The translations under genes and the position numbers were made by a program. From positions 420,419-484,418 of the forward strand of contig NZ_LISX01000001.1 in assembly GCF_001905465.1 (NCBI RefSeq): DNA of 64,000 bases, written 5' to 3'. The stretch comes from Kitasatospora sp. CB01950 (lineage in GTDB: Bacteria; Actinomycetota; Actinomycetes; Streptomycetales; Streptomycetaceae). The notes beneath the pieces are model-generated. The model was not told the origin of the DNA, did no database searches, and saw only the letters and a list, made by a program, of their open reading frames with translations. Positions 3,075 through 25,012 of the stretch are shown here, piece by piece; the stretch's first letter is position 1, and each line of letters begins with the position of its first letter.

Positions 3075-3082
3075 GAAACAGG

Positions 3083-3118
3083 TACACTGCCCGGCGTGAC
3101 GACAATGGGTCTACAGAC
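3083..3118 (+). promoter_or_regulatory. Compact divergent promoter/operator of the R-M system
   Basis: A -10-like TACACT (3083-3088) lies seven bases before an in-frame GTG at 3096, which fits a leaderless methylase transcript. A small inverted repeat, GTCT-AC-AGAC, sits at 3109-3118 and could be a controller half-operator. The promoter of the leftward controller/nuclease gene must lie in the same few tens of bases. Confidence 0.35.
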
Positions 3119-4951: not shown

Positions 4952-6781
4952 CCTGAGCTTGACTCTGTCGGGGATCTTGGTGTTCGACTGCAGGTGATCA
5001 TGGTGGCGCGCCAGTCTCGCGGGTGTACGTGCCTGTGAGATTCCCGAGGAGTGCAGATGTCGGTCCGTCGCCGTCCGGGTGGCAAGGTCCCGGTGTTGAC
5101 GGTGCGGATGGCGAGGGCCAGCAAGCTCGGTGATACGACGGCGATGTGGGTGCGGGACCGGCTCGACGGCCTGTGGCGGGACGAGGACTTCGCGGACTGG
5201 TACCCGCGCGACGGGCGCCCGGGCTCTCGCCCGCGCAGCCGGCCACGGTGAGCGTGCTGCAGTTCCTGCTGGGCCTGTCCGACCGCGACGCCGCCGAGGC
5301 CGTGCGCTGCCGGATCGACTTCAAGTACGCGCTCGGCCTCGAACTCGACGATCCGGGCTTCCGCCACAGCGTGCTGACCGACTTCCGCGACCGCCCGGTG
5401 CGGGAGGACAGGGCGGACCGCCTCCTCGACCTCGCCCTGGCCCGGCTTGAGGACACCGGGCTGGTTCGTGAGCGCACTACTCGGCGCACCGACTCCACCC
5501 ACGTCCTGGCCGCCGTGCGCGACCTGACCCGCCTCGAGCTGGTCACCGAGGCCGTACGTGCGGCCTCGGAGGAACTCGCCCGCACCGCCGGCCACGCGCT
5601 GGACGGCCTGGTCGGCCATGACTGGGGCCGCCGCTACGGCCGCCCGGTGCGCCTGGGCAGGAACCCCACGCGGCCCAGGACCCGGATCAACAACACCGGC
5701 GAAGACGCCCGCCACCTGCTCGAACACCTCATCCGCAACCACCCGTCCCTGCTTGCAGGCCCTCAAGTTCAGGTCCTGCGACAGATTCTGGTGCAGAACT
5801 GCTTCTGGGACCCCGCCGGGCGCCTGCGCTGGCGCGACGAGGACGACGGCAGCGGCCTGCCGCCCTCGGCGCACCGGATCGTCTCGCCCTACGACCCGCC
5901 GGTCCGCTACGCACGCCGCGGCCAGGCCACCCGTTGGACGGGGTTCCTCGCGCACGTGACCGAGACCTGCTCCACGACGGCCCCAACGTCATCACAGATG
6001 TGGCCACCATGCCCGCCACCAGCTCCGACACCGAGGTCCTGCCCGGCGTCCACACTCGGTTGGAGCGCCGGAGCCTGCTGCCCGACCAGCACCTGGTCGA
6101 CGGCGGCTACACCTCCCTGCCCCACCTGGAACAGGCGACACGCGAACACCGTGTCACCGTCCTCGGACCTCTGCCGGGCAACCCCACCCGCCAGCACCGC
6201 CGCGGCGAGGGCTTCGCACGCGACGACTTCCGCATCGACTTCGACCGCAAGGAGGTCACCTGCCCGCAGGGACAGACCAGCGCCGGCCGGCACGGCCCCC
6301 ACCCGACCTCCTCACCGACCGCAGCCCCGCTGATCGTCGCCCGCTTCACCAAGAACCAGTGCCAGCCCTGCCCGGTCCGGGCCAAGTGCACCAGCTCCCG
6401 CGACTCCCACCGCACCGTGGGCTTCCCGCCGCACGAGCTGCTCGAACTCCAGCAGCGCAACCGCGCCGACCAGCAGGACCCGGCCTGGCACAAACGGTAT
6501 GCGGTCCGTTCCGGCATCGAGGGCACCATCTGCGAGTTCGCCCACGGCCGTGGCCACGGCATGCGCCGCTGCCGCTACTGCGGACAGCCCAAGGCGTACC
6601 TGCAACGCGTGCTCACCGCCATCGCCGTCGACATCGAACGCCTCAGGCGAAGGCGCGCTCCCGCGACCGCCGACAGCCTTCCAGGACCACCTCGACCAGC
6701 AGGGCATCCCACGCCTACGTTCCTGGCGAGCCGTCAGCTGACGCAGCAGCGACCAAGATCCCCGACAGAGTCAAGCTGAGG
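4952..6781 (+). mobile_element. IS1182-type insertion sequence, complete ends
   Basis: 30-bp inverted repeats with a single mismatch (4952-4981 and 6752-6781) enclose one frameshifted transposase, total 1.83 kb. No clear target duplication is visible. It inserted just behind the tRNA terminator, within 20 bases of the island edge. Confidence 0.85.
5057..6779 (+). pseudogene. IS1182-family transposase, two frameshifts
   Basis: Homology to IS1182-type transposases moves through three frames. Residues up to GRPG (about 5220) are in the frame of ATG 5057, which follows a GAGGAG ribosome site. From LSPAQPATVSVLQFLLG to about 5965 it is in the -1 frame, and from DGPNVITDV onward in a third. The first break is explained by loss of one G in a CCCGGGG run near 5221. 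Landmarks remain: TDSTHVLAA with the first Asp, HLVDGGYTS with the second, a Cys-rich [10 protein letters not shown] segment, and RSGIEGTI near the catalytic Glu. Without programmed frameshifting at both sites the protein is dead. Confidence 0.85.
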
Positions 6782-6909: not shown

Positions 6910-7512
6910 TCAGGGCTTCCCCTTCGAGATGAAGAGGGCGATGGTGGAGTCCGGGGCGACGGTGGTGCCGGGCTGGGGTTCTGTGTTGATGACGGCTCCG
7001 GTCGGGGTGTTCCAGTCGGTGAAGGTCTGGATGTGTCCGATTTTCAGGCCGGCTTCTGTGAGGGTCTTTTCGGCTTGGTCCTGGGGCATGCCGAGCACGG
7101 GGGGGACGGTGATCGAGGCGTCGTGCGGGCCCGGTTCGGTGTGGGTGCCGGGCGACGGGGTTCCGCTTCCCATCGTGGTGCCGGGGGATGCGGTGCCGGC
7201 GGTGGGTGATGGGGTGTTCGGGGCGGCGGTGGCGGTCGTGGCGGCGGCGGTGTGGTCGGTCGGGTGGTCGGTGCCGTGCAGGGCGAAGGCCGTGCCGGCG
7301 GTGAGCACGATGACGGCGGCCGAGGCGGAGAGGGCGGCGAGGCCGCGCCGGCGGCGGGTGCGGGTGCGGTGCAGGATGGCGGTGCCGTCGAAGGCGGGGG
7401 GGTGTGCGTCGTTCGCGAAGTCGTCCATGGCCCGGAGCAGTGCCTCTCTGAAGTCGGGGCCCGGCACGGTGCTGTGGTGACCGGTCTGGTCGTCGGGCGG
7501 GAACGGGGTCAT
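6910..7512 (-). CDS. Membrane-anchored single-PASTA protein
   Basis: 200 residues. A cytoplasmic N-terminus (1-55) ends in a basic stretch RTRTRRRR, followed by one membrane span (about 58-78) and a Thr/Pro/Ala-rich extracytoplasmic linker (80-132). One PASTA domain follows (134-200: ITVPPVLGMPQDQAEKTLTEAG...PGTTVAPDSTI). PASTA domains bind muropeptides or beta-lactam-like ligands. The ATG overlaps the sigma-factor stop (TGATG), so the two are translationally coupled. In this position one expects an anti-sigma factor. The N-terminus has no recognisable zinc-binding anti-sigma motif, so sigma control by a PASTA sensor is an inference from context. Confidence 0.82.
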   Translation of the reverse strand: MTPFPPDDQTGHHSTVPGPDFREALLRAMDDFANDAHPPAFDGTAILHRTRTRRRRGLAALSASAAVIVLTAGTAFALHGTDHPTDHTAAATTATAAPNTPSPTAGTASPGTTMGSGTPSPGTHTEPGPHDASITVPPVLGMPQDQAEKTLTEAGLKIGHIQTFTDWNTPTGAVINTEPQPGTTVAPDSTIALFISKGKP

Positions 7513-8105
7513 CACGCACCTTCGAACTGGGGCAGTGGGGCGGTCCGGCGGCCGTCCGGTGTGGGCGGGGGCTGTTCGGGCTGGGGCTGTTCGGGCTGAG
7601 GGACTGCGGTGCGCAGTCTGGCCAGCCCGCGGGCGAGTTGCGAGCGCACGGAGCCGGCAGAGATCCGGAGCGTCTCGGCGATCTCGCGGTCCTCCATGTC
7701 GTGGAGGTAGTGCAGCACCACGACGGTGCGCATCCCGATCGGCAGGGCGTGGAGTGCCTGCACCAGTTCGTCGCGGAGATCCACCAGCCGGTACGGGTCG
7801 CGGGGGTCGGCGCGCTCCACCTCGTGCGAACGCGTGCCCATCCGGCGGAGGTTGCGCCACCGGTCGTTGGCCAGGTTCACCACGATCCGGCGGACGTACG
7901 CCTCCGGCGAGTCCGCGACGGCGACCCGGTTCCAGTGGCGGCACGCCTTCTCCAGGGCCTCCTGCAACAGGTCCTCCGCGCTCTCCTGACTTCCGGTCAG
8001 GACATAGGCGGTCCGGAACAGCGCCGCCGAACGCTGCTGGACGAACTCGACGAAGTCGATCCTCCGGGGGTCCTCGCCGCGCCTGTCCAGCCTCACCAGC
8101 CGCAT
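7512..8105 (-). CDS. ECF sigma factor, SigE-like group
   Basis: 197 residues from ATG 8105; the open frame extends further upstream but with no resemblance. Region 2 is VQQRSAALFRTAYVLTGSQESAEDLLQEALEKACRHW in outline; region 4 is ALPIGMRTVVVLHYLHDMEDREIAETL followed by SAGSVRSQLARGLARLR. The C-terminal tail is Pro/Gln-rich, with a PQPEQ repeat. It would direct RNA polymerase to a small stress or envelope regulon. The coupled membrane PASTA protein is the obvious candidate partner and suggests a cell-wall signal. The divergent biosynthetic operon starts 265 bp away but nothing shows that this sigma factor drives it. Confidence 0.85.
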   Translation of the reverse strand: MRLVRLDRRGEDPRRIDFVEFVQQRSAALFRTAYVLTGSQESAEDLLQEALEKACRHWNRVAVADSPEAYVRRIVVNLANDRWRNLRRMGTRSHEVERADPRDPYRLVDLRDELVQALHALPIGMRTVVVLHYLHDMEDREIAETLRISAGSVRSQLARGLARLRTAVPQPEQPQPEQPPPTPDGRRTAPLPQFEGA

Positions 8106-8369: not shown

Positions 8370-9632
8370 GTGAGCATCCTGCTAGTTCACAAGAAGAACC
8401 TGAGCCGGCGTCTGCTTCTGGCGAAGGCCCGGGAGTACACGCAGCGGCACGGGGACCGGCTGCTGATGATCATGGCGGACCCGACGTGGGAGGCGGAGTA
8501 CGTCGACCGGGTCGGCCTTGCGGACACCACGAGCATCGAAGAGACCCTCAAGGCGTGCAAGGCGCTGCTCGCGGACGAGACGGAGCCGGTCACGGCCGTC
8601 ATCACGCTGAGCGAGTTCTGTGTGCCGACGGCTGCGGCGATCGCCGCGGAGTACGGTCTGCCCTCGGTGAGTGAGCAGACCGCGTACGCGGCGCGCGACA
8701 AGTTCGCGATGCGCAGTGCGTTCGCGGAAGCGGGGGACGTGCCGCAGCCGAAGTTCGCGCTGGTCACCGACGCGCGGCAGGCCGTCGAGCAGGCGGAGCA
8801 GCTCGGCTACCCGGTGATCATCAAGCCGGTGATCGGCGCGCACAGCATGTTCGTACAGAAGATCGACAACGAGCAGGAGCTGGTCGAGGCGTTCCCGGAG
8901 ATCCAGAAGGGCGCCTGGGAGGGCTTCGCGTTCGACCCGCTGTACCACCAGACGTTCGAGCGGTACAACGGCGGCATCCTGATCGAGGAGTTCGTCGGCG
9001 GCACCGAGATCAGCGTCGAGTCGCTGATCGTCGACGGGGTGACGCACTCCATCGCGATCCACGACAAGCCGCTGCCGCAGGGCACGACCTTCGAGGAGGT
9101 CTACGCCTGCACGCCGACCCGGTTGCCCGCCGAGACGGTGGAGAAGATCTACGCCGCGACCGCCGCCTGCCACCGGGCGCTGGGCATCACCACCGGCGCC
9201 TCGCACGTCGAGTGGCGGCTGCGCGACGGCAAGGAGCCGGTCATCCTCGAAGCCGGCGCCCGGATGGGCGGCGGCCCGATCTACCGGTCGGTGCTGCTGA
9301 GCACGGGCGTCGACATGCTGGAGGCGATGCTCGACCTGTCGACCGGGCGGACGCCCACCATCGACCCCCGGCCGGAGCCGACCCCGATCGGCTTCCGCAA
9401 CATCTTCCCCGAGAAGCCCGGCACGCTGACCGAGATCGTCGGCGCCGAGGAGACCGAGGCTTCCGACGACGTGCACGACCTGGAGATCCTCCGGGGGATC
9501 GGCGACACCCTCGACGTCCCGCCGAACACCTACGAGGGGTACGGCCACGTCATCTTCACCGCGCCGGACATCGAGCGTCTGGACGCGCGGTTCGCAGAAC
9601 TTCTTCGAACACTGCGGCTGGAGACCCGATGA
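8370..9632 (+). CDS. ATP-grasp carboxylate-amine ligase 1
   Basis: 420 residues, starting with GTG behind GGGGAG. It has the ATP-grasp layout. An N-terminal preATP-grasp domain (1-110) is followed by DKFAMRSAFAEAG, then the nucleotide-binding YPVIIKPVIGAHS (about 148-160), the lid/EEFVGGTEISVE, and the metal-binding end HVEWRL...VILEAGARMGGG (about 275-300). Such enzymes activate a carboxylate as acyl phosphate and join it to an amine, as in bacilysin- or dapdiamide-type peptide formation. It opens a six-gene rightward operon and overlaps the oxygenase by ATGA. With two further, unrelated-looking ATP-grasp enzymes in the operon, a small peptide or amide product made without an NRPS is likely. 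The substrate is not predictable. Confidence 0.85.
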   Translation: MSILLVHKKNLSRRLLLAKAREYTQRHGDRLLMIMADPTWEAEYVDRVGLADTTSIEETLKACKALLADETEPVTAVITLSEFCVPTAAAIAAEYGLPSVSEQTAYAARDKFAMRSAFAEAGDVPQPKFALVTDARQAVEQAEQLGYPVIIKPVIGAHSMFVQKIDNEQELVEAFPEIQKGAWEGFAFDPLYHQTFERYNGGILIEEFVGGTEISVESLIVDGVTHSIAIHDKPLPQGTTFEEVYACTPTRLPAETVEKIYAATAACHRALGITTGASHVEWRLRDGKEPVILEAGARMGGGPIYRSVLLSTGVDMLEAMLDLSTGRTPTIDPRPEPTPIGFRNIFPEKPGTLTEIVGAEETEASDDVHDLEILRGIGDTLDVPPNTYEGYGHVIFTAPDIERLDARFAELLRTLRLETR

Positions 9633-10636
9633 ACGCACTGAGCGGAGCCCTGACAGCGTCGTCGACCATCGGTGACGGCGGTATCGCCCTCACCGACCTC
9701 CGCCTCGCGGACAGTGTCCGCGACGCCCTGGCCGAGCGGCTGCACGACGCCCTCGGCGACCCCTTCCCGCCGCTCGACACCGATGTCGACGCCGCGATCC
9801 TCGCCCGGATCGGCGTGCACGCGCTGCGCCGGACGCTGCCGACCGCCGTGCTGGACGAACTCGCCGGCTTCACCCGCGACAGCAGCGACGTGCTGGTGCT
9901 GTCGAACCTGCCGCAGCAGGAGTTCCCGCCGACCCCGGTCAGCGGCTTCGGCGAGGAGACCGAGCTCTCCCTCGTCAACTCGCTGCAGCTCGGCCTGATC
10001 TCGCTGCTCGGGCTGACCCCGTACGCGGTCGACTACGAGAACAGCGGCAAGCTCATCCGCAACGTCGTCCCCAACCCCGAGGCGGCCGGCAAGACCAGCT
10101 CCTGGGGTGCGGACACCGAGTTCTTCTGGCACACCGACAACCCCCACCTGCCGTTCGGCCAGGCGGGGTTGGACCCGAGGCCGTTCCCGCCGCGGTTCCT
10201 CACCTTCTACGCGGTGCGCAACGTCGAGCAGGTGGCCACCGAGTTCGTCGGGGTGGACGTCGCGCTGGAGGGGCTGCCGGAGGAGGTCCTGGAGCGGCTG
10301 TCCGCCAACGAGTTCCTGGTGGCGGCGCCGGACTCCAACGACGTCAAGTCCGACGGGAGGCGGATCGCGCTGGAAGGCACCGCGGTGCTCCAGCGTGCCC
10401 CCGAGGGCGTCCTCATCCGCTACGACCGCGGCACCACGCGGGGCATGAACGCCGAGGCCGAGCGGGCCCTGGACATCCTGTCCGAGCAGCTGGCCCGGAA
10501 GCCCGCCTTCGCGCCCGTCCTGCAGCCGGGCCAGTTCCTGATCTTCGACAACTACCGGGCGCTGCACCGCCGCAAGGCCTTCGACCCGGCGCCGTCCGAC
10601 GTCGCCCGGTGGCTGCGTCGCTGCTACGCCAGCTGA
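9629..10636 (+). CDS. Fe(II)/2-oxoglutarate oxygenase, clavaminate synthase/VioC-like
   Basis: 335 residues. The iron ligands are visible as H168-T-D170 (FFWHTDNPHLPF) and the distal His313 (YRALHRRKAF). The segment GKLIRNVVPNP...TEFFWHTDNPH is the hallmark of the clavaminate synthase/arginine beta-hydroxylase (VioC, AsnO) branch rather than of sulfonate-using TauD. That branch hydroxylates, or oxidatively cyclises and desaturates, free or modified amino acids. It would therefore tailor an amino-acid building block or the finished peptide. It is translationally coupled to ATP-grasp 1 (ATGA). An approximately 90-bp gap follows before the next gene, still in the same direction. Confidence 0.85.
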   Translation: MNALSGALTASSTIGDGGIALTDLRLADSVRDALAERLHDALGDPFPPLDTDVDAAILARIGVHALRRTLPTAVLDELAGFTRDSSDVLVLSNLPQQEFPPTPVSGFGEETELSLVNSLQLGLISLLGLTPYAVDYENSGKLIRNVVPNPEAAGKTSSWGADTEFFWHTDNPHLPFGQAGLDPRPFPPRFLTFYAVRNVEQVATEFVGVDVALEGLPEEVLERLSANEFLVAAPDSNDVKSDGRRIALEGTAVLQRAPEGVLIRYDRGTTRGMNAEAERALDILSEQLARKPAFAPVLQPGQFLIFDNYRALHRRKAFDPAPSDVARWLRRCYAS

Positions 10637-10725
10637 CCGCGACGCGGAACACCGCTGACAACCCGGCTCCACCGGCCAGTTCACGGCCGGAGCCGATTCA
10701 CCGCACAGAACGAGGAGAACATCGG

Positions 10726-11979
10726 ATGTATCGGGTCGCCGTGGTCGGTGGAAAGCCGGCCCCCATCAGCGGTGCGAAGGAACTCGGCATCGACGTCGTG
10801 CTGGTCCACGAGGAGGGCAAGTACGACATCGACGAGGCCGGGCCGCACTGCGAGCGGATCGTGCACGCCCCGGTCGACGACCGCGAGGCCATCCTCGCGG
10901 TGCTCAAGCCGCTGCACGAGGAACGCCCCTTCGACCTGCTGCTGACCACCACCGAGGACGCCGCGATCCCGGTCGGCTGGGTCAACGAGGCGCTGGGCCT
11001 GCCCGGCACCAGCGAGCGCACCTCGCGGATCATCAAGGACAAGGCCCTGACCCGGCAAGCGATGGCCGACGCCGGCCTGACCCCGGTTCAGTTCCGGTCG
11101 CTGACCGACGCCGAGGACGCGGCCGACTTCCAGACCGCGGTCGGCGACCGGATCGTGCTCAAGCCGATCGACGGCGTTGCCAGCCTGCACATCCACGTCG
11201 CGACCACCCCGGAAGAGGCGTCCGCCGCGTGGAACACGCTGCAGGAGGCCGGCTACCCGCGGGTCATCGCCGAGGAATACCTCGACGGCCCCGTGGTGAG
11301 CGTCGACTCGTTCTCGTACCAGGGCCGCCACATCGTGGTCGGAATGTCCGAATACATCATGAACGAGACCTTCGTCGAGTGGCAGGTCGCGACGGTCAGC
11401 GAGACCGCCTGGCCGCACCGCGAGGCGCTGCGCACCGCCACCGCCGAGCTGCTGGACGCGGTCGGCCTGACCGACGGCCCCGCGCACAGCGAGTTCGTGC
11501 TGACCCCCAAGGGCCCCCGGGTGCTGGAGACCCACAACCGGCTCGCCGGCTCCGGCGCCCCCGACCTGGTGCGCCGGGCGACCGGCGTGGACCTGGCCCG
11601 GATGTTCCTGACCATTCCGCTCGGCATCGACAAGCTCCCCGAGACCCACCCGGAGCCGACCGGCGGCGCGGCGATCCGCTTCTTCGTCTTCCCCGAAGGC
11701 GGCCGGATCACCAAGATCACCGGCCTGGACGACCTCGACGTGCCGGTGCTGCGGGTGCCCGCGGGCGAGAAGCCGCCGCACATCATCCCGTACATGTACA
11801 GGCTCGCCGGGCACGAGGTCGGCGTCGTGATCTCCAAGGACGTGGGCGACACCGTCAACCCGCTGCGCGCGGTCATGGACTGCGACAGCGGCTACGTGCT
11901 GGCCCAGGGCCGCGACATGCAGGACGCGGTCGCCAAGGCCGCGGCGCTGACCGAGCGGATCCAGTTCCACGTCGAGTAG
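10726..11979 (+). CDS. ATP-grasp carboxylate-amine ligase 2
   Basis: 417 residues from the ATG behind GAGGAG. It starts with a Rossmann-like MYRVAVVGGKPAPISGAKELG. The ATP-grasp core shows DKALTRQAMADAGL, DRIVLKPIDGVAS (Lys for ATP), IAEEYLDGPVVSVDSFSY, HSEFVLTPKGPRVLETHNRLAGSG (metal-binding Glu and Asn) and a C-terminal FVFPEGGRI lobe, as in the carboxylate-amine ligase subfamily that includes BacD-like dipeptide synthetases. It is clearly different in sequence from ATP-grasp 1 and 3, so it probably makes a separate bond. It lies in the middle of the operon, with an SDR gene 43 bp downstream. Confidence 0.85.
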   Translation: MYRVAVVGGKPAPISGAKELGIDVVLVHEEGKYDIDEAGPHCERIVHAPVDDREAILAVLKPLHEERPFDLLLTTTEDAAIPVGWVNEALGLPGTSERTSRIIKDKALTRQAMADAGLTPVQFRSLTDAEDAADFQTAVGDRIVLKPIDGVASLHIHVATTPEEASAAWNTLQEAGYPRVIAEEYLDGPVVSVDSFSYQGRHIVVGMSEYIMNETFVEWQVATVSETAWPHREALRTATAELLDAVGLTDGPAHSEFVLTPKGPRVLETHNRLAGSGAPDLVRRATGVDLARMFLTIPLGIDKLPETHPEPTGGAAIRFFVFPEGGRITKITGLDDLDVPVLRVPAGEKPPHIIPYMYRLAGHEVGVVISKDVGDTVNPLRAVMDCDSGYVLAQGRDMQDAVAKAAALTERIQFHVE

Positions 11980-12022
11980 GCCGCCGGGCCGACTGCACAC
12001 GACCGACCAGAGAGGAAAGACC

Positions 12023-12784
12023 ATGGTGAAGACCGCAGTCGTGACCGGTGCGAGCAGCGGCATCGGAGCGGCCATCACAGCGCGGCTGGCCAAGGACGGC
12101 TACCGGGTGCTCGCCGTGGCCCGCCGGGCCGACCGGCTGGCCGAGGTGGCCGAGCGGACCGGGGCCACGCCGTACGTGCTCGACGTCACCGACAGCGAGG
12201 CGGTGGCCCGGTTCGCCGCCACCGTCGACCGGTGCGACGTGCTGGTGAACAACGCCGGCGGCGCGTTCGACGCGGCCACCCTCGAAGCCGCCGACCCGGA
12301 GGTCTGGCGACACAGCTTCGATGTGAACGTCCTCGGCACGCTGCACGTCACCCGGGCACTGCTGACCGCACTGCTGGCGGCCCGGGGCGCGACTGTGGTC
12401 ACCATGAACTCGACCGCCGGGACCTCCGTCTACGAAGGCGGCGGCAGCTACACGGCGGCCAAGCACGCGGCGCACGCCCTCACCGGGACGCTGCGCCTGG
12501 AACTGGCCGGCCGGCCCGTCCGCGTCGTCGAGATCGCCCCGGGCATGGTGCGGACCGAGGAGTTCGCCCTCAACCGGTTCGCCGGCGACGCGGGCAAGGC
12601 CGCGGCCGTCTATGCGGATGTCGACCGGCCGCTCACCGCCGAGGACATCGCCGAGTGCGTCGGCTTCACGGTCGGCCTGCCGATCCACGTCAACATCGAC
12701 CAACTGGTCGTCAGGCCACTGGCCCAGGCCGCGCAGCACAAGCTGCACCGCGGCCCGCTCTTCGAGGGGGAGACTGCGCGATGA
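12023..12784 (+). CDS. Short-chain dehydrogenase/reductase (YdfG-like)
   Basis: 253 residues. The NAD(P)-binding TGASSGIG is at 8-15, NNAGG near 76-80, and catalytic Ser/Tyr/Lys in MNSTAG...SYTAAKHAA; the C-terminus reads APGMVRTEEF. The overall match is to the YdfG/serine-3-dehydrogenase type of SDR, which oxidises beta-hydroxy acids or reduces the keto form. That would suit oxidation of a beta-hydroxy amino acid produced by the neighbouring oxygenase, although the substrate is inferred only from context. A GAGAGGAAAG ribosome site precedes the ATG. It overlaps the next ligase gene by ATGA. Confidence 0.88.
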   Translation: MVKTAVVTGASSGIGAAITARLAKDGYRVLAVARRADRLAEVAERTGATPYVLDVTDSEAVARFAATVDRCDVLVNNAGGAFDAATLEAADPEVWRHSFDVNVLGTLHVTRALLTALLAARGATVVTMNSTAGTSVYEGGGSYTAAKHAAHALTGTLRLELAGRPVRVVEIAPGMVRTEEFALNRFAGDAGKAAAVYADVDRPLTAEDIAECVGFTVGLPIHVNIDQLVVRPLAQAAQHKLHRGPLFEGETAR

Positions 12785-14145
12785 CCGACGCGATCACCGA
12801 GGCGTACAACCAGGAGTGCCTGTCCCCGGACAGCCGGCTGCGCGACGTCACCAGCCGGCTGAAGCTGCCGGCCAAGCTCGCCGCCGCGCACGGCGCCGGC
12901 TCGCTGCCGCGCCCGCTGTTCCTCGCCGAGCGGGAGATCCAGGAGTTCACCGACGACCTGAAGGGCTTCTTCGACCTGCTGACGGCGCTGCCGGAGCGGC
13001 TGTTCGACGGCAACGTCGACCGGTACGCCGACGCGGTCGGCGTCAGCCCGCGGCGGGCCGCGCTGATGAAGCGGCTCGGCGTCGCCCCGATCCTGCACGG
13101 ACGCGCCGACCTGCACCACGACGGGACGTCGTTCAAGCTGCTCGAGTTCAACGTGGGCACCCACCTGGGCGGCACCGACCGCGCGGAGGTGCTGCGGCTC
13201 CACCTGGAGGACGAGGCGTTCCGCTCCTTCGCCGAGGAGCACCGGCTCGACTACGCGCACACCGGCTCGCAGATCATCGACGTGCTGCGCAAGCTCGGCG
13301 AGCAGGTGACCGGCGGATCGGAGCCCGTCATCGCCTTCGTCGAGGCCGACGGGGGTCTGGCGCCCTACCTGCACCTGGTGCTCTCGTTCCAGGAGATGGC
13401 CGCGCGGCTCGGCATGAAGATCCTGCTCGCCGAGGTCAGCCAGGTCACCAGCAAGGACGACAAGCTCTACCTGGACGACACCCCGATCGACGTCGTCCTG
13501 CGCTACTTCTCGACCAACCAGCTGTGCGCGGACGGCCGCGACGGCGCCGAGGCGGAGCCGTTCTTCCGCGCCCACGAGGCCGGCAAGACGCTGCTCTACA
13601 CGCCGCTGGACGGCCTGCTCTTCGAGCAGAAGACCAGTCTGGCGCTGCTCTCCGACCCCGAGTGGCGCGGCGCGTACACCGCCGAGGAGACCGAGCTGAT
13701 CGACCGGCTGCTGCCGTGGACCCGGCTGCTCACCGACGGCGAGACCACCGCCGACGGCGAGCGGGTGGACATGCTCGACTACTGCCACGCCAACCGCGCC
13801 GATCTGCTCCTGAAGCCCGGCGGCCAGGACGGCGGCCGCGGCATCGTCTCCGGCTGGACCGTCGACGACCGGACCTGGCGCGAGGCGCTGGCGTCCGGCA
13901 ACGGCAAGGAGTGGCTGGTGCAGCGCCGGGTCGTTCCCCGGAACGAGCCGATGGTGGACCCGGAGACCCTGCAGATCCGCGACTGGCAGGCCACCTGGGG
14001 CATGTTCGTCACCCCGCACGGCTACGGCGGCTTCCACATCCGCGCCCTGCCGGCCGACCTCGACGGCATCCTCTGGCTCGGCAACGTGCCGCACGTGCGC
14101 AAGACCGGCGTCTTCCACTACGCGGCGCCCGACAAGGAGGCGTGA
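12781..14145 (+). CDS. ATP-grasp ligase 3, glutathionylspermidine-synthase-like/circularly permuted type
   Basis: 454 residues with no N-terminal Rossmann start. The glycine-rich nucleotide loop comes late in the chain: LLLKPGGQDGGRGIVSGW (about 339-356), followed by EWLVQRRVV and GMFVTPHGYGGFHIRAL. This order is typical of circularly permuted ATP-grasp proteins and glutathionylspermidine-synthase-like enzymes, which form amides on peptides or polyamines. The middle contains FKLLEFNVGTHLGG, resembling the substrate-side domain of that family. It overlaps the SDR by ATGA and the exporter by one base (TGATG). It is the third independent ATP-grasp fold in the operon, so at least two or three amide bonds are likely. 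Confidence 0.8.
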   Translation: MTDAITEAYNQECLSPDSRLRDVTSRLKLPAKLAAAHGAGSLPRPLFLAEREIQEFTDDLKGFFDLLTALPERLFDGNVDRYADAVGVSPRRAALMKRLGVAPILHGRADLHHDGTSFKLLEFNVGTHLGGTDRAEVLRLHLEDEAFRSFAEEHRLDYAHTGSQIIDVLRKLGEQVTGGSEPVIAFVEADGGLAPYLHLVLSFQEMAARLGMKILLAEVSQVTSKDDKLYLDDTPIDVVLRYFSTNQLCADGRDGAEAEPFFRAHEAGKTLLYTPLDGLLFEQKTSLALLSDPEWRGAYTAEETELIDRLLPWTRLLTDGETTADGERVDMLDYCHANRADLLLKPGGQDGGRGIVSGWTVDDRTWREALASGNGKEWLVQRRVVPRNEPMVDPETLQIRDWQATWGMFVTPHGYGGFHIRALPADLDGILWLGNVPHVRKTGVFHYAAPDKEA

Positions 14146-15416
14146 TGACCGCCGACGTGTCGACGGCGGCGCCCGAGGAACGGCAGCGCTCGCTGCTGGC
14201 CCGCCACGCCGACTTCCGCCGGCTGTTCACCGCGTACAGCCTGAGCCAGGTGGGCACCCAGGTCAGCTACGTCGCGGTGCCGCTGGTGGCAATCGAGGCA
14301 CTGCACGCGGGCTCCGCCCAGGTCAGTGCGCTGGCGTTCCTCGGCTCGCTGCCGTTCCTGCTGGTCGGCCTGCAGGCCGGCGCGTGGCTGGAGCGGATGC
14401 GGCGGCGGCCGGTCCTGATCGTCACCGACCTGGTGCGCGGCGGGCTGATCGCCTCGGTGCCGATCGCCTGGGCCTTCGACGCGCTGACCAGCGTCCACCT
14501 CTACCTGGCGGTGCTGCTGGTCGGCGTCGCGACGGTGTTCTTCGAGGTGGCGTCCGGGGCGTACATCCCGCACCTGGTCGGCCGGGACAACCTGCTGGAG
14601 GCGAACGCCAAGCTCGGCGGCATGTTCGCGGGCGCCGAGGTCGCGGGCCGGAGCATCGGCGGTTTCCTCGTGCAGGCGCTCACCGCGCCGTACGCGCTGG
14701 TGGTCAACGCCGTCACCTACCTGTGGTCGGCGCTCTGGCTGGGCGTGATCCGCAAGCAGGAACCGCAGGTGGAGAAGACCGGCGCCGCCAAGCCGCTGTG
14801 GCCGGACGTCAAGGCCGGCCTCGGGTACGTGTTCGGCAACGGGGTGCTGCGGACGATCTCGCTGGAGACGTCCTGGAGCAACTTCTGCCTGCGCATCGTC
14901 ATCACGCTGGTGCCGGTGCTGTACGTCTCGGAGCTGCACCGCTCCGCCGCGCTGGTCGGCGCCTTCCTGACCGCGGGCGGCGCCGGGGTGTTCGTCGGCG
15001 CGGCGGTCGCCCGCCGGATCGGCAGCAAGGTCGGCTACGGCCGGGCGCTGTGGCTGTCGGGCGCCTGCTGCGGGCCGTTCGCGCTGGTGGTGCCGTTCGC
15101 GGTGCACGGCGCGGCGGTGTGGATCGGCATCGTCGCCTGGGGCCTGGCGACGGTCAAGGTCGGCTTCGACAACGTGCTGAAGGGTTCGATCCGTCAGCTC
15201 GTCACCGCGGACGACATGATGGCCCGGATGGGCGCGACCTACCGTTTCCTGATCACCGGCGTGCTGGCGATCGGCTCGGGCGCCGCCGGTGTGCTGGCGG
15301 GAACGGCCGGGGTGCGGACCGCGGTCCTGGTCGGCGCCGCCGGCCTGGCCGTGAGCTGGCTGATGCTGTTCTTCTCGCCGGTCCGCGCGATCCGGGAGCT
15401 GCCCGGCACCGCGTGA
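14145..15416 (+). CDS. MFS transporter, probable product exporter
   Basis: 423 residues with about twelve hydrophobic segments. The FRRLFTAYSLSQVGTQVSYVAVPLVAI start and the LERMRRRPVLIVTDLVRGG loop are typical of the MFS_3/enterobactin-exporter-like (EntS/macrolide efflux) group. As last gene of the rightward operon, translationally coupled to ATP-grasp 3, it most likely exports the finished compound and may confer self-resistance. Only 35 bp separate its stop from the convergent LysR gene. Confidence 0.88.
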   Translation: MTADVSTAAPEERQRSLLARHADFRRLFTAYSLSQVGTQVSYVAVPLVAIEALHAGSAQVSALAFLGSLPFLLVGLQAGAWLERMRRRPVLIVTDLVRGGLIASVPIAWAFDALTSVHLYLAVLLVGVATVFFEVASGAYIPHLVGRDNLLEANAKLGGMFAGAEVAGRSIGGFLVQALTAPYALVVNAVTYLWSALWLGVIRKQEPQVEKTGAAKPLWPDVKAGLGYVFGNGVLRTISLETSWSNFCLRIVITLVPVLYVSELHRSAALVGAFLTAGGAGVFVGAAVARRIGSKVGYGRALWLSGACCGPFALVVPFAVHGAAVWIGIVAWGLATVKVGFDNVLKGSIRQLVTADDMMARMGATYRFLITGVLAIGSGAAGVLAGTAGVRTAVLVGAAGLAVSWLMLFFSPVRAIRELPGTA

Positions 15417-15451
15417 GCGCGCACGTCGCAGGCGACGCCCGGCCGTTCGGG

Positions 15452-16354
15452 TCAGAGCGTCGTCTGCGCCGTCTTCGACAGTGCGGCGATCGTCGCCCGG
15501 ATCGCCGGGCGGCGGTCGCCGCCGGCCCGCCAGACCGCGTAGACGTGCCGGCTCAGCAGCGGCTGCACCGGGACCACCCGGACGCCCTCCGGGATCGGTT
15601 CCCGGCCCAGTCGCGGGATCACCGCGATGCCGAACCCGGCCTGCACGAGCGCCAGTTGGGTGGCGTACTCGCCGGCCGTGTGGACGATCTGCGGTTCGAT
15701 GCCGTACCCGCGCAGGGTGTAGAGCAGCCACTCGTAGCAGCCGGAGCCGGGCGTCCAGCTGATCCACCGGTCGCCGTGCAGCTCGGCCAGGTCGAGCGTC
15801 TCGCGGGACGCCAGCGGGTGGCTCGCCGGGAGCGCGATGTCGGCGACGTCGTCGAGGAGTTCGGTCCGGCTCAGCCCGGGCGGCAGGCTCAGCGGTGCGT
15901 TGAACCAGTCCTGCACCACCGCGACGTCCAGGTCGCCGCGGATCACCAGCGGCACCGACACGTCGGGCTCCAGCTCGGAGATCCTCGGGAACAGCGACGG
16001 GAACTCGGTCACCAGGCTGGTCAGGGTGCCGGTCAGCAGACCGCGGGCGGCCGTCGGGAAGCCGGCTATCGACACCTGCCCGACCACGGCGCCGCGGTGC
16101 CCCTCCAACTCGGCCTCGGTCTCGTCGACCAGCGCCAGGATCTTGTCGGCCCGGTCGACCAGCAGCTTCGCCGCGTCGGTCAGCAGCACGCCCCGGCTGT
16201 GGCGCTCCAACAGCGTCTGCCCGACCTCGCGTTCGAGCTTCGCGAGCCGCTGCGACACCGCCGACGTGGTCAGGTGCAGCACGGCCGCGGCCGAGCTGAT
16301 CGACCCGCTGGTCGACACCGCGTGCAGGGCCCGAATCCCGTTGAGCTCCAACAT
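15452..16354 (-). CDS. LysR-family transcriptional regulator
   Basis: 300 residues. An N-terminal winged helix (1-62: RALHAVSTSGSISSAAAVLHLTTSAVSQRLAKLE) is followed by a LysR substrate-binding domain (about 88-295), with SLVTEFPSLFPRISEL and AGEYATQLALVQAGFGIAVIP typical of the co-inducer lobe. It sits between the converging biosynthetic operons. It is separated from the leftward operon by a strong terminator, so it has its own promoter. Its ligand could be a pathway intermediate. Candidate targets are the palindromes before 8370 and the 26901-27111 promoter region, neither proven. Confidence 0.9.
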   Translation of the reverse strand: MLELNGIRALHAVSTSGSISSAAAVLHLTTSAVSQRLAKLEREVGQTLLERHSRGVLLTDAAKLLVDRADKILALVDETEAELEGHRGAVVGQVSIAGFPTAARGLLTGTLTSLVTEFPSLFPRISELEPDVSVPLVIRGDLDVAVVQDWFNAPLSLPPGLSRTELLDDVADIALPASHPLASRETLDLAELHGDRWISWTPGSGCYEWLLYTLRGYGIEPQIVHTAGEYATQLALVQAGFGIAVIPRLGREPIPEGVRVVPVQPLLSRHVYAVWRAGGDRRPAIRATIAALSKTAQTTL

Positions 16355-16413
16355 GTGCGTGTCCTTCCGCAGGTGGTCGGCGGCGTCGAAGCCGTCGGGT
16401 ACGAGAAGCAGAA

Positions 16414-16468
16414 CACGGCGGACTCCGGCCGGGCGGCTGTTCGGTGCCGCCGGCCGGAGTCCGCCGTG
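16414..16468 (-). terminator. Strong hairpin ending the 10-gene leftward operon
   Basis: Perfect 19-bp inverted repeat (16414-16432 / 16450-16468) with a 17-base loop, immediately behind the aldo/keto reductase stop. It separates the biosynthetic operon from the LysR gene. Confidence 0.85.
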
Positions 16469-16490
16469 CGTATGGCCTGGAGCCGGCCGG

Positions 16491-17339
16491 TCAGCTCGCC
16501 GGGTAGGCGGCGTCGAGACGGGCGAACTGCTCGTCCGTCAGCACGAGTTCGGCGGCCGCGACGTTCTCCCGCAGGTGCCCGGCCGAGCTGGTGCCCGGGA
16601 TCGGGATCATCATGGGGGAGCGGTGCAGCAGCCAGGCCAGCGAGACCTGGGTGGTGGTGGCGCCGAGCTCGGCGGCCACCCCGGCCAGCACGCCGCGGTC
16701 GCGCGAGTGCTCACCGCGGGCGATCGGCAGCCACGGGACGAAGGCGATGCCCTCGCGCTCGCAGTACTCCAGCACGTCCTCGTCGACCCGGTCGCTGAGG
16801 CTGTAGCGGTTCTGCACGCTGACCACGTCGATCTCGGTCCGGGCCGCCTCCAGCTCGGCCACCGACACCTGCGACAGGCCGATGTGCCGGATCTTGCCCT
16901 CCTTCTGCAGCTGCGCCAGCGCGCCGAACTGCTCGGCGACCGGCACCTGCGGGTCGATCCGGTGCAGCTGGAACAGGTCGAGGGACTCCAGCCGCAGCCG
17001 GCGAAGGCTCAACTCGGCCTGCTGGCGCAGGTACTCGGGACGGCCCAGCGGCAGCCACTCGTCCCGCGAGGGACGCGACTGGCCCGCCTTGGTCCCGATG
17101 ACCAGGCCGTCCGGGTAGGGGTACAGGGCCTCGGCGAGCATCTCCTCGCTGGTGCCGGGGCCGTACGAGTCCGCGGTGTCGATGAAGGTCACGCCGAGCT
17201 CGACGGCGAGCCGGGCGAGGTCGAGCGCGGCCGGAACATCGGCGGGCAGGCCCCACACCCCGGGCCCGGTCAGCCGCATCGCGCCGAATCCCATGCGCTG
17301 GACGGTCAGATCGCCACCGAGGACGAAGGTCTGGTTCAC
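16491..17339 (-). CDS. Aldo/keto reductase
   Basis: 282 residues, (alpha/beta)8 barrel of the AKR family. It has MGFGAMRLTG, FIDTADSYGPGTSEEMLAEAL with catalytic Asp/Tyr, then GTKAGQS, DLFQLHRIDP with catalytic His, GLSQVSVAEL and the NADPH-binding PIPGTS...L. It would reduce an aldehyde or ketone. It is the last gene of the leftward operon, only 9 bp after the MDR gene, so it is certainly cotranscribed. Its closest look-alikes are general-purpose oxidoreductases, so the substrate cannot be named; a sugar-like ketone is plausible from the neighbouring sugar enzymes. Confidence 0.88.
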   Translation of the reverse strand: MNQTFVLGGDLTVQRMGFGAMRLTGPGVWGLPADVPAALDLARLAVELGVTFIDTADSYGPGTSEEMLAEALYPYPDGLVIGTKAGQSRPSRDEWLPLGRPEYLRQQAELSLRRLRLESLDLFQLHRIDPQVPVAEQFGALAQLQKEGKIRHIGLSQVSVAELEAARTEIDVVSVQNRYSLSDRVDEDVLEYCEREGIAFVPWLPIARGEHSRDRGVLAGVAAELGATTTQVSLAWLLHRSPMMIPIPGTSSAGHLRENVAAAELVLTDEQFARLDAAYPAS

Positions 17340-17348
17340 GGTTTCCTC

Positions 17349-18398
17349 TCAGTTGCTTGCAAATGCCCGACGCCGGTCGGAGCCGGCGGCAGGGACGAGC
17401 ACGACCTTTCCGAGCACGCGACGCCCGGCGAGGTCCGCGTGGGCCTGTGCCGCTTCGTGGAGCGGACGGTCACCCACTGCGTCCAGCCGCAGCATGCCCC
17501 GTGCCAGGCCGTCGAACACCGCCCTTGCCCGATCGAGGAGTTCGGACCGGTCGCGGATGTGATGGGTGAGGTCGGGGCGGGTCAGGAAGAGCGATCCGCC
17601 CGCCTGCAGCAGCGCCGGATCGACCGGGTCGACCGGGCCGCTCGCCGCGCCGTGCAGCACCAGGGTGCCGCGTGGACGCAGCGACGCCAGGCTCTGGGCG
17701 AAGGTCGCGGCGCCGACCCCGTCGTAGACCGCGGCCACCCCCTCGCCCCCGGTCAGCGCCCGGACCTGCTCGGACAGCGGGGCGTCGCCGGCGTCCGGGC
17801 CGTAGCGGACCACCTCGGCGGCGCCGGCCTTCCGCGCCAGCTGCTCCTTCTCGGCGGTGGAGACGGTCGCGATCACCCGGCCGCCGAGCAGCGTCACCCA
17901 CTGCGTCAGCAGCAGCCCCAGGCCGCCCGCCGCGGCCTGGACCAGCACGTTCTGGCCCGGCCGCACCGGGTGGGTGTCGTGCACCAGGTAGTGCGCGGTC
18001 ATGCCCTGCAGCAGCACCGCCGCCGCCGTCCGGTCGTCGATCGCGTCCGGCACCGGCACCAGCCGCTCGGCCGGGACGACGGCGAACTGCGCGTAGGCGC
18101 CGCGCACGTTCGCCCAGGCGACCCGGCCGCCGACCCGGAGGCCGTGCGGGTCCGTGTCGGGCCCGAACGCGCGCACGACGCCCGCGCCCTCCTGCCCGAG
18201 CACGGCCGGCATCGGCACCGGGTAGCGGCCCGAACGCAGGTACAGGTCGACGAAGTTGACGCCCGCCGCGGCGACCTCGACCAGCGCCTCGCCCGGGCCG
18301 GGCGTCGGCACCGGGCACTGCTCGAAGCGCAGTTGCTCGGGGCCGCCCGGCTCGTGCAGCACCACGGCGTCCATCACGTCCTGCCCGGCCTCAGCCAT
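17349..18398 (-). CDS. Quinone-oxidoreductase-like MDR protein
   Basis: 349 residues of the zinc-independent medium-chain dehydrogenase family. The N-terminal GroES-like part (LHEPGGPEQLRFE...GVNFVDLYLRSGRYPVPMPAVLGQEGAG) lacks the Cys/His zinc ligands. The Rossmann half shows VLVQAAAGGLGLLLTQ, followed by VIATVSTAEK and VYDGVG. Such enzymes reduce enones or quinones with NADPH. The start overlaps the aminotransferase stop by 8 bp. Together with the aldo/keto reductase it suggests reduction of a conjugated or 2-keto-3-deoxy intermediate; this is inference. Confidence 0.88.
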   Translation of the reverse strand: MAEAGQDVMDAVVLHEPGGPEQLRFEQCPVPTPGPGEALVEVAAAGVNFVDLYLRSGRYPVPMPAVLGQEGAGVVRAFGPDTDPHGLRVGGRVAWANVRGAYAQFAVVPAERLVPVPDAIDDRTAAAVLLQGMTAHYLVHDTHPVRPGQNVLVQAAAGGLGLLLTQWVTLLGGRVIATVSTAEKEQLARKAGAAEVVRYGPDAGDAPLSEQVRALTGGEGVAAVYDGVGAATFAQSLASLRPRGTLVLHGAASGPVDPVDPALLQAGGSLFLTRPDLTHHIRDRSELLDRARAVFDGLARGMLRLDAVGDRPLHEAAQAHADLAGRRVLGKVVLVPAAGSDRRRAFASN

Positions 18399-19386
18399 GA
18401 GCCTTGACCGGAACCGGGGTGAGCCAGCTGAGGTGCCGGCCCGAACGGCCGCGCACCAGCGAGAAGTACAGCTCGTACAGGTGCTCGGTGACCGGCCCGG
18501 CGACGCCCTTGCCGACCTGCAGGCCGTCCACCGTGGTGATCGGCAGCACCTCCCATGCCGTGCCCAGGAAGAACAGCTCGTCGGCGAGGTACAGCTCGGT
18601 GCGGTCCACCGTGCGCTCCTCGACCTCGTAGCCCTCCTCGGCGAGCAGGGTCAGCGCGGTGGAGCGGGTGACGCTCTCCAGCACCCCGCTGGACAGCGCC
18701 GGGGTGACCACCACGCCGTCCCGGACCATCGCGATGCACGCGCCCGGGCCCTCGCTGACCTTGTGCTGGTCGTTGAGCAGGATCGGCCAGTCGTGCCCGT
18801 TCTCCCGCGCCTCCATCAGCGCCAGGCGGCCGTTGTGGTAGTTCGAGAACGCCTTGACCCGCGGCGGCGTGATCGCGTCGCTGATCCGCAGCCAGGAGCT
18901 GACCCCGGCCCGGCAGCCCTCCCGCTTGAACCCGGACTGGAACGGCCAGCTGTCGATGGCGACCTCGCAGCGCACCCCGGCCGGGACCATCTGCTCCCGG
19001 ATCACGCCCTCGGGGAACGCCCACGGGCGGATGTAGGTGTCGTCCGAGGCCTTGTTCGCCGTCATCAGCTCGACGATCGCCGCGGTCAACTCGTCCCGCG
19101 TCCACGGGATCTCGACCCGGCAGATGCGCGCGGAGGCGTACAGCCGGTCCAGGTGGTCCTCCAACCGGAACAGCAGCAGGTTCTCGCCGTCCTCGGCCAG
19201 GTACGCCTTGATGCCCTCGAAGACCGCCGCCACCGAGGCGTGGCCCACGGCGTTGACGTGGATCGTGGCCTCGCCCCAGGGCTGCAGCCGACCGCTGCGC
19301 CAGATCCACTCGGCGCTGTCCACGCCGGGAGCGGCCAGGGAACCGAGGTGTGCGGCGGGCTCACGCCGCTGTGCTGCGGAACTCAT
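18391..19386 (-). CDS. Class IV (branched-chain/IlvE-like) aminotransferase
   Basis: 331 residues of PLP fold type IV. Visible are YASARICRVEIPWTRDEL, YIRPWAF, the PLP lysine region RVKAFSNYHNGRLALMEA, and the C-terminal LYLADELFFLGTAWEVLPITTVDG. The usual GAGENLF-type loop is GPGACIA here, and the Gly-Asn spacing after the lysine is altered, so substrate choice probably differs from housekeeping IlvE. It would aminate a 2-keto acid made by the operon, linking the sugar-acid enzymes to the amino-acid ligases of the opposite operon. It overlaps the HAD gene by 26 bp. Confidence 0.85.
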   Translation of the reverse strand: MSSAAQRREPAAHLGSLAAPGVDSAEWIWRSGRLQPWGEATIHVNAVGHASVAAVFEGIKAYLAEDGENLLLFRLEDHLDRLYASARICRVEIPWTRDELTAAIVELMTANKASDDTYIRPWAFPEGVIREQMVPAGVRCEVAIDSWPFQSGFKREGCRAGVSSWLRISDAITPPRVKAFSNYHNGRLALMEARENGHDWPILLNDQHKVSEGPGACIAMVRDGVVVTPALSSGVLESVTRSTALTLLAEEGYEVEERTVDRTELYLADELFFLGTAWEVLPITTVDGLQVGKGVAGPVTEHLYELYFSLVRGRSGRHLSWLTPVPVKAHG

Positions 19387-24990: not shown

Positions 24991-25012
24991 TGTCTCTCCT
25001 TCGGGGGTTCGG

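Follow-up and report, generated by a model that had tools for sequence, protein, structure and literature searches.

A locus of Kitasatospora sp. CB01950 that encodes three different ATP-grasp ligases raises the question of what these ligases join, and which further genes belong with them. Peptides built by free-standing ATP-grasp ligases easily escape cluster finders keyed to NRPS, PKS or RiPP signatures. The locus is part of a 64,000-nucleotide stretch of DNA (hereafter the window). The ligase genes lie among six open genes at 8370-15416, all on the + strand and with a GC3 of 0.93-0.98:

Gene A, 8370-9632, +, 420 aa: L-amino-acid-ligase-type ATP-grasp ligase (Pfam ATP-grasp_4, LAL_C2; nearest in PDB BL00235 (3vot) and BacD; E-x-x-A-R motif).
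Gene B, 9629-10636, +, 335 aa: Fe(II)/2-oxoglutarate oxygenase, TauD/CAS-like (Pfam TauD; PDB alignments; H168-x-D170 ... H313).
Gene C, 10726-11979, +, 417 aa: L-amino-acid-ligase-type ATP-grasp ligase (Pfam ATPgrasp_N, ATP-grasp_4, LAL_C2; PDB BL00235).
Gene D, 12023-12784, +, 253 aa: short-chain dehydrogenase/reductase, SDR (Pfam adh_short).
Gene E, 12781-14145, +, 454 aa: permuted ATP-grasp ligase with predicted glutathione/glutathionylspermidine-synthetase fold (AlphaFold2 model, Foldseek, VIA-align; putative metal ligands D110, E122, N124).
Gene F, 14145-15416, +, 423 aa: MFS exporter (Pfam MFS_1, MFS_3).

The six genes form a tightly coupled operon, with spacings of -4 (A/B), 89 (B-C), 43 (C-D), -4 (D/E) and -1 bp (E/F). 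An earlier note on this DNA had seen three different ligases sharing one operon with an oxygenase, an SDR and an exporter, and this was confirmed by Pfam, by the fold of E and by the gene spacing. The absence of NRPS and PKS that it reported was borne out in the genes scanned by Pfam, as neither kind of domain was found in A-R and 15 further ORFs of the window. No tRNA or Rfam family was found in the window, and promoter and terminator pattern scans gave no result.

Ligases A and C passed the Pfam cut-offs for both ATP-grasp_4 (80.3 and 40.3 bits, respectively; cut-off 27) and LAL_C2 (51.3 and 40.3 bits; cut-off 29.4). Judged by this domain set, both are members of the L-amino-acid-ligase type and are predicted to form peptide bonds. 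The solved structures closest to them, BL00235 and the bacilysin ligase BacD, have the identical domain set and have the E-x-x-A-R motif of A in common. However, A scored 71.9 bits against an NCBIfam BacD cut-off of 850, identity to these structures is low, and the gene context differs. Oxygenase B passed Pfam TauD (51.6 bits, cut-off 27), and its H-x-D/E...H triad was located at H168, D170 and H313. Among solved structures, those closest to B belong to the CAS/VioC/AsnO/lysine-3-hydroxylase kind, and its sequence features place it among the Fe(II)/2-oxoglutarate oxygenases of the TauD/CAS type. The former description of B as “VioC/clavaminate-synthase-like” had the superfamily right, but B attains no specific family: it missed the NCBIfam equivalog cut-offs for GntD (77.8 against 345 bits), CS1 (59.1 against 450) and VioC (44.9 against 418.6), and lies so far below them that its substrate cannot be named.

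Ligase E gave no match to Pfam or NCBIfam at E 0.001, and a single chance match to PDB by sequence (E 0.3). A contig search with E alone as query had no result. An AlphaFold2 model of E (mean pLDDT 93.1) was compared with known structures. Foldseek placed glutathione synthetases on top (1m0w, E 2e-17) and a GSPS-like protein, 3n6x, at rank 17. The first 26 rows of VIA-align (Z 21-26 over 332-414 residues) were YgiC/YjfC, glutathione, glutathionylspermidine and trypanothione synthetases. The model indicates a permuted ATP-grasp fold along the whole chain, an assignment that covers fold and mode of action alone, and the label “permuted, glutathionylspermidine-synthase-like” given to E in the earlier note proves right by fold, though without a sequence-family match. 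E has the whole fold and the permuted ATP-grasp order in common with these synthetases, but is found at 10-15% identity to them (VIA-align) and in an actinobacterial biosynthetic context. When 42 of the 54 listed E proteins were aligned (the E of the window being one of them or additional), the putative metal ligands D110 and E122 were present in all 42 and N124 in 37, with Gly in the other five. According to the motif, these residues may be equivalent to D273, E281 and N283, the metal-binding residues of E. coli GSH synthetase (PMC11117183). Pur6 of the puromycin pathway was weighed as a relative of E but set aside; it is described as having a mass of 84 kDa and lacking known domains (PMC11641026).

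Glutathionylspermidine and trypanothione synthetases, which have the fold of E, join a peptide to a polyamine. E might likewise attach an activated acid to an amine other than an amino acid, such as a polyamine or amino sugar, in which case the product would be no plain peptide. Another such role would be the use of aminoacyl-tRNA, as in PEARL enzymes, for which an origin from GSS/GSPS-like ATP-grasp proteins has been proposed and which have half-length relatives with an N-terminal part resembling GSPS and GSH synthetase (PMC11117183). We consider these roles unlikely, as E recurs next to L-amino-acid ligases in many loci. A PEARL-like role is further opposed by the Asn of the putative metal site, which E keeps and which in PEARLs is replaced by His (PMC11117183), and by the lack of any Pfam match, hence of one to a lantibiotic-dehydratase family.

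A-F are followed by a LysR gene and, beyond it, by a ten-gene operon at 16491-26900 (H-Q). This operon is on the opposite strand, and the two operons converge with the LysR gene between them:

Gene G, 15452-16354, -, 300 aa: LysR-type regulator (Pfam HTH_1, LysR_substrate; also in L021 and L053).
Gene H, 16491-17339, -, 282 aa: aldo/keto reductase (Pfam Aldo_ket_red).
Gene I, 17349-18398, -, 349 aa: zinc-ADH/quinone-reductase-like enzyme (Pfam ADH_N, ADH_zinc_N; NCBIfam).
Gene J, 18391-19323, -, 310 aa: class IV aminotransferase, branched-chain type (Pfam Aminotran_4; NCBIfam PRK06606.1, TIGR01122).
Gene K, 19361-20056, -, 231 aa: HAD phosphatase (Pfam HAD_2).
Gene L, 20053-21393, -, 446 aa: FAD sugar-lactone/alditol oxidase-like (Pfam ALO, FAD_binding_4; PDB 8ot8, xylitol oxidase 2vfr).
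Gene M, 21390-22322, -, 310 aa: RmlD-like reductase (Pfam RmlD_sub_bind; NCBIfam rmlD 216.4 against a cut-off of 224.05).
Gene N, 22322-22996, -, 224 aa: RraA-like aldolase (Pfam RraA-like).
Gene O, 22996-24990, -, 664 aa: single-chain transketolase-like enzyme (Pfam Transketolase_N, Transket_pyr, Transketolase_C; GDG...N motif; PDB transketolases).
Gene P, 25013-25810, -, 265 aa: short-chain dehydrogenase (Pfam adh_short_C2).
Gene Q, 25800-26900, -, 366 aa: NeuB-like PEP-dependent synthase with SAF domain (Pfam NeuB, SAF; PDB SpsE, PseI, NeuB relatives).
Gene R, 27429-30449, -, 1006 aa: SARP-type (BTAD/NB-ARC/TPR) regulator, the probable pathway regulator (Pfam BTAD, NB-ARC, TPR_12; syntenic 81% copy in G031).

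Q was above the Pfam cut-offs for NeuB (249 bits) and SAF (47.4 bits), and these domains and its E-I-x-x-N-H motif are also those of the sialic-acid-type synthases NeuB, PseI and SpsE. In contrast to those systems, Q missed the NCBIfam equivalog cut-offs for NnaB (283 against 399.65 bits) and PseI (223.7 against 340.25), and Pfam detected no cytidylyltransferase family among A-R. Aminotransferase J passed the NCBIfam branched-chain cut-offs (PRK06606.1, 283.4 bits against 279; TIGR01122, 261.2 against 245.55). No LysW-like carrier gene was called between A and Q among ORFs of at least 60 aa.

The explanation that we favor, with slightly better than even chances, is a single cluster of about 17 genes, A-Q (8370-26900), with regulator R, in which H-Q supplies a polyhydroxylated amino acid and A-F modifies, joins and exports. 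It draws on the gene coupling, the families, the fold of E, the linkage of A to operon Q-H, the ligase tree and the precedent of the phosphonoalamides. We infer all substrates, the sequence of steps, the residue count and the product as follows. In a NeuB-type reaction, Q would condense PEP and an aldose (phosphate), and transketolase O and the RraA-like aldolase N would set the carbon chain. K would remove the phosphate, oxidations and reductions would fall to L, M, P, I and H, and J would transaminate, giving a polyhydroxylated L-alpha-amino acid, to be coupled by A. B would hydroxylate another residue, which D might take on to a ketone and which C would couple. E would add one more amide bond, all three ligases would act through acyl phosphates, and F would export the small peptide. 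The scores of J at branched-chain cut-offs count against this explanation, since a hydrophobic keto acid fits them better than a polyol. So do the occurrence of H-Q genes apart from these ligases, the differences in ligase sets between loci, and a locus in which only Q of the operon accompanies F and E (all described below).

A search of 394 sampled genomes of the class found A (E <= 1e-80) in five and transketolase O (E <= 1e-130) in six, both together in five (Fisher p 8e-11; 5e-9 when the genome of the window is excluded; these values ignore relatedness). B was rarer, in 3/394. Such counts for A and B are not those of the scattered housekeeping genes that the earlier note had allowed for. 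H-Q genes adjoin A in nine loci from about six actinobacterial genera (the window, G031, Micromonospora KC606, Pilimelia, Actinophytocola, Microbispora, G162, G153 and G510), and in G184 A and the H-Q operon are on separate contigs. G031 was the only one of 72 related stretches with A-F in the same order as in the window, and B is missing from the other seven of the nine loci. The ligase sets differ, with no C at the Microbispora locus and no E in G510. In the latter, J is still together with K-Q, and neither H nor I was found. In Nonomuraea endophytica, Q alone of the H-Q operon was seen near F and E. The six genes A-F are not supported as the full set, as the ten-gene operon accompanies ligase A in other genera; the coordinates 8370-15416 match A-F, but the cluster runs on to about 26900.

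Related stretches were called with a simple codon-usage script, which splits some genes (B in L108 is one open frame by genome search), and which was also used for an unannotated plasmid with a match to Q. Some places entered the comparison from two sources (L022/L042, L023/L043, L024/L045, L026/L054, L027/L059, L030/L088, L041/L103-L104 and probably L092/G402).

Trees were quick runs with no bootstrap, built from the LAL rows of 25 chosen loci and the E rows of 28. In the ligase tree (44 rows), the ten A-type rows fell into a single clade (SH-aLRT 100); the nine loci above account for nine rows, and a 10-kb contig carries the other. The C of the window clustered with the C genes of three loci that carry B (5 rows, SH-aLRT 99). 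E grouped with Actinocrinis at SH-aLRT 93, under the starred level. As the window's C groups with C of B-carrying clusters that lack a visible H-Q operon, the cluster looks like a mosaic.

Alternatively, A-F alone, the set described in the earlier note, could build a small oligopeptide from ordinary residues and residues oxidised by B, with H-Q an unrelated neighbor, e.g., in carbohydrate or cell-surface metabolism. This would agree with the convergent arrangement of the operons, with the occurrence of parts of H-Q without the ligases, and with Actinocrinis, G150 and G142, where B, C and another ligase were seen without H-Q genes. It is nevertheless distinctly improbable, because A tracks H-Q across genera and in several gene orders, including G162 and G153, where H-Q is followed directly by A-C-F-E on one strand. 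Operon H-Q probably supplies one residue of the ligase product.

H-Q genes without these ligases were observed in two settings. In G402 and Streptomyces NBC_01237, Q, P, O, N, M and K are next to large genes that are NRPS by Pfam (two condensation domains, two AMP-binding domains, carrier and thioesterase), with a 78-aa carrier protein, and a class III aminotransferase immediately follows K. In G538, Q, P and O are within a polysaccharide-type locus carrying a cytidylyltransferase. The product of these genes therefore need not be ligase-joined, and in some settings it may be something other than an amino acid. The products of NeuB-family enzymes are 2-keto-3-deoxy sugar acids, and H-Q could make a nonulosonate-like sugar acid that the ligases amidate or aminoacylate without its becoming an alpha-amino acid, while J serves another residue. 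The cytidylyltransferase of G538, expected for a CMP-activated sugar acid, and the branched-chain scores of J are in line with this. We nonetheless hold it to be very unlikely, given that J is inside the coupled operon and stays with K-Q in G510, and that the NRPS-linked version has its own aminotransferase after K. We tentatively suggest, at a little under even chances, that sialic-acid-type chemistry (NeuB-like PEP condensation together with a transketolase) has become a movable actinobacterial cassette, which yields polyhydroxylated non-proteinogenic amino acids of a new class and is plugged into free-standing ATP-grasp ligases here and into NRPS modules in G402 and NBC_01237.

The cluster family unites three ligases, one from a family that neither Pfam nor NCBIfam models, with a proposed amino-acid pathway around a NeuB-like enzyme. 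If the favored explanation is true, polyhydroxylated amino acids could be reached by a new route, the residue that each ligase takes could be predicted (A with operon Q-H, C with oxygenase B), and there would be small peptides to seek in several genera.

No characterised cluster of this make-up was found in the literature by title or opening abstract, which is weak evidence, as most subscription papers are outside that coverage. Clavams, tabtoxin, phosphonopeptides and azabicycles were dropped as products, since beta-lactam synthetase, PEP mutase and azinomycin-type kinase/semialdehyde genes are not among the families of A-R. Scleric acid biosynthesis has a single ATP-grasp ligase, SclG (PMC13307308). 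The azinomycin-type diamino-dihydroxy-heptanoate pathway also uses a transketolase and an aminotransferase to reach a polyhydroxylated amino acid, but its transketolase is split (AziC5/C6) and acts on N-acetyl-glutamate-semialdehyde (PMC9570651), whereas a single-chain transketolase and a NeuB-like enzyme are present here and the kinase/semialdehyde pair was not seen among A-Q. In the belactosin A cluster, too, ATP-grasp ligases form peptide bonds and a 2-oxoglutarate enzyme acts on one residue. That residue is an aminocyclopropyl amino acid from lysine, and the available part of the source does not mention a NeuB/transketolase set (PMC10764440). In the phosphonoalamide clusters (PnaA-PnaD) the residue is phosphonoalanine (PMC11867202), whereas the window has a third, permuted ligase, an oxygenase and the NeuB/transketolase operon, and no Pfam match to the PEP mutase/phosphonopyruvate-forming family among A-R. 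Still, two ATP-grasp ligases, one of them a free-standing L-amino acid ligase, there build tripeptides around a PEP-derived, transaminated residue (PMC11867202), in a convergent pathway such as the one proposed here.

The earlier note, drawn from the sequence alone, had named six genes as a ligase operon (A-F, 8370-15416), and these proved to be real: all are on the + strand, with one stop each and GC3 values of 0.93-0.98. Neighbouring genes either overlap by 4, 4 and 1 bp or are separated by gaps of 89 and 43 bp. Downstream of F lie a regulator gene (G) and a second operon of ten genes (H-Q), and a SARP-type regulator (R, Pfam) is found 528 bp past Q.

Genes of the ligase operon, the second operon and the LysR regulator
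A, 8370-9632, + strand: ATP-grasp ligase with LAL_C2 domain (Pfam)
B, 9629-10636, + strand: TauD-type oxygenase (Pfam)
C, 10726-11979, + strand: ATP-grasp ligase with LAL_C2 domain (Pfam)
D, 12023-12784, + strand: classical SDR (Pfam)
E, 12781-14145, + strand: permuted glutathione-synthetase-type fold (AlphaFold2 model, Foldseek, VIA-align)
F, 14145-15416, + strand: MFS exporter (Pfam)
G, 15452-16354, - strand: LysR regulator
H-Q, 16491-26900, - strand: ten genes, overlapping or at most 37 bp apart
Within 16491-26900, all - strand:
H: aldo/keto reductase
I: ADH-like reductase
J: BCAT-type aminotransferase
K: HAD phosphatase
L: FAD lactone/alditol-oxidase-like enzyme
M: RmlD-like reductase
N: RraA-like aldolase
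O: transketolase
P: SDR
Q: NeuB-like synthase

The PDB structure nearest to both A and C is the L-amino acid ligase BL00235, followed for A by BacD. PDB alignments of B reveal the metal-triad residues H168-x-D170 and H313 (residue numbering). J passes the NCBIfam cut-offs for branched-chain transaminases, a sequence score that is by itself no pointer to a polyol substrate. Divergent from A, an ECF-type sigma factor gene overlaps a PASTA-domain protein gene (6910-8105); in the comparison with other loci, no such pair adjoined A. Further upstream, a segment of low GC (0.57) at 1945-3980 encodes a D12 adenine methyltransferase together with a protein that fits a type II restriction enzyme model (DUF7687); the two are probably a type II restriction-modification pair, and transposase matches flank them (609-1448 and 5146-6333).

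Gene E, without a match in Pfam or NCBIfam, was modelled with AlphaFold2 using an alignment with 41 relatives (mean pLDDT 93.1). Foldseek and VIA-align grouped the whole modelled chain with eukaryotic-type glutathione, glutathionylspermidine and trypanothione synthetases and YgiC/YjfC. Residues 181-447 correspond in the alignment (Z 9.5) to positions 1-249 of the E. coli GSH synthetase 1gsa, and the putative metal motif (D110, E122, N124) lies N-terminal to this part, so that the model indicates a permuted ATP-grasp order. All 42 of 42 aligned rows share D110 and E122, and at position 124 Asn occurs in 37 rows and Gly in the other 5. By motif, the three residues are putative counterparts of D273, E281 and N283, given as GSH synthetase metal ligands in PMC11117183.

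Relatives of E are common (57/150 genomes at E <= 1e-3, 42 of these below 1e-50), and in the stretches compared other L-amino acid ligases often adjoin them. Twelve distinct loci (L043 (= L023), L025, L052, L058, L061, L062, L064, L065, L067, L068, L069, L091) combine both with two further families, each classed from one scanned member: f9, of PRMT-like methyltransferases, and f4, of haem-oxygenase-like proteins with a sub-threshold cupin match. A third family in these loci gave a weak match to dimethylargininase. The f9/f4 pair is reminiscent of SznE/SznF, the pair that acts in N-nitrosourea biosynthesis. In another recurrent type (L032-L036, L038, L039), an L-amino-acid-ligase-like gene accompanies an E relative, together with a protein of ~650 aa whose AMP-binding match is sub-threshold. 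The window's own genome has a second E-family gene (L040; 35% identity) with an L-amino-acid-ligase-like neighbour.

The window was set against 72 related stretches from two retrievals (20 + 52, with some duplicates). The A-F order recurs only in genome G031, where G-R are present too, divided between L021 and L102. With further fetched stretches included, H-Q genes adjoin an A-type ligase in nine loci: the window, G031, Micromonospora sp. KC606 (Q-I, G, H), Pilimelia terevasa (M-H seen), Actinophytocola xanthii (O, P, Q seen), Microbispora siamensis (Q-H), G162 and G153 (both Q-H, then A-C-F-E) and G510 (Q-J plus two other ligases; E not seen there). A and H-Q are on separate contigs in G184, and in Streptomyces oryzae a 10-kb contig carries A, C, F and E. 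G153, G162, G184 and G510 belong to the same genus as G402.

Broad samples agree with this linkage. Transketolase O (E <= 1e-130) was found in 6/391 genomes of the order and 6/394 of the class; ligase A (E <= 1e-80) was found in 5/394 class genomes, all among the six with O (Fisher p = 8e-11, or 5e-9 once the genome of the window is left out; neither value is corrected for relatedness). In the remaining O-bearing genome, G538, the O copy is 53% identical and is part of a polysaccharide-type locus. Oxygenase B (E <= 1e-40) occurs in 3/394 class genomes.

In a quick ligase tree of 44 rows, the ten A-type rows fell into a single clade with SH-aLRT 100; the nine A + H-Q loci account for nine of these rows. 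C of the window and G031 clustered with C of Actinocrinis (L042), G150 (L107) and G142 (L108) (SH-aLRT 99), separate from C of Micromonospora, Pilimelia and the others. These three loci hold B and C homologues, another ligase, a carbamoyltransferase and a haem-oxygenase-like protein, and G142 has a D homologue (66%); H-Q genes were absent from their fetched stretches. They constitute a second cluster type, also with a GDSL hydrolase; the family assignments here rest on Pfam for members of L022, the same place as L042. In the E tree, E of the window grouped with Actinocrinis, with support of only 93. From the ligase-tree grouping and the B-carrying loci without H-Q, we infer that a B-C-D unit was joined to an A + H-Q unit, in which case A would take an H-Q-derived residue and C a B-modified one.

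As counter-evidence to the A + H-Q linkage, the H-Q core can serve other ends, because it is found in NRPS and polysaccharide-type loci. In G402 (L100-L101) and on a linear 1.6-Mb plasmid record of Streptomyces NBC_01237 (NZ_CP108509.1; L106), Q, P, O, N, M and K are accompanied by NRPS genes and by putative genes for hydroxyphenylglycine, but not by these ligases. The homologues lie between the putative hydroxyphenylglycine set (glyoxalase/HPPD-like, FMN dehydrogenase, aminotransferase) on one side and a class III aminotransferase on the other, and the NRPS is two-module with a thioesterase. The G538 locus (L105) has relatives of Q, P and O (51-56%) with a cytidylyltransferase, which makes a polysaccharide origin of this set possible; aldehyde dehydrogenase and capsule-type genes are also present. 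In Nonomuraea endophytica, only Q of the H-Q genes was seen, with F and two E copies.

Gene content, families, folds and linkage are shown here; the following steps are proposed as the most likely pathway. Q would condense PEP with an aldose or aldose phosphate, O and N would set chain length, K would remove phosphate, and L, M, P, I and H would adjust oxidation levels before J aminates the 2-keto acid. B would hydroxylate a second residue, which D may then oxidise; A, C and E would link the parts by way of carboxylates activated as acyl phosphates, and F would export the product.

The window cluster belongs to a real, recurrent and uncharacterised cluster family; among the papers that literature searches listed, none described a cluster of A-F + H-Q make-up. 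The clearest precedent for the peptide-by-ligase reading is the phosphonoalamide pathway, in which, according to PMC11867202, ligases build peptides around a PEP-derived residue. The cluster is a new variant among ATP-grasp-ligase peptide pathways, and the NeuB/transketolase operon is its most unusual part.
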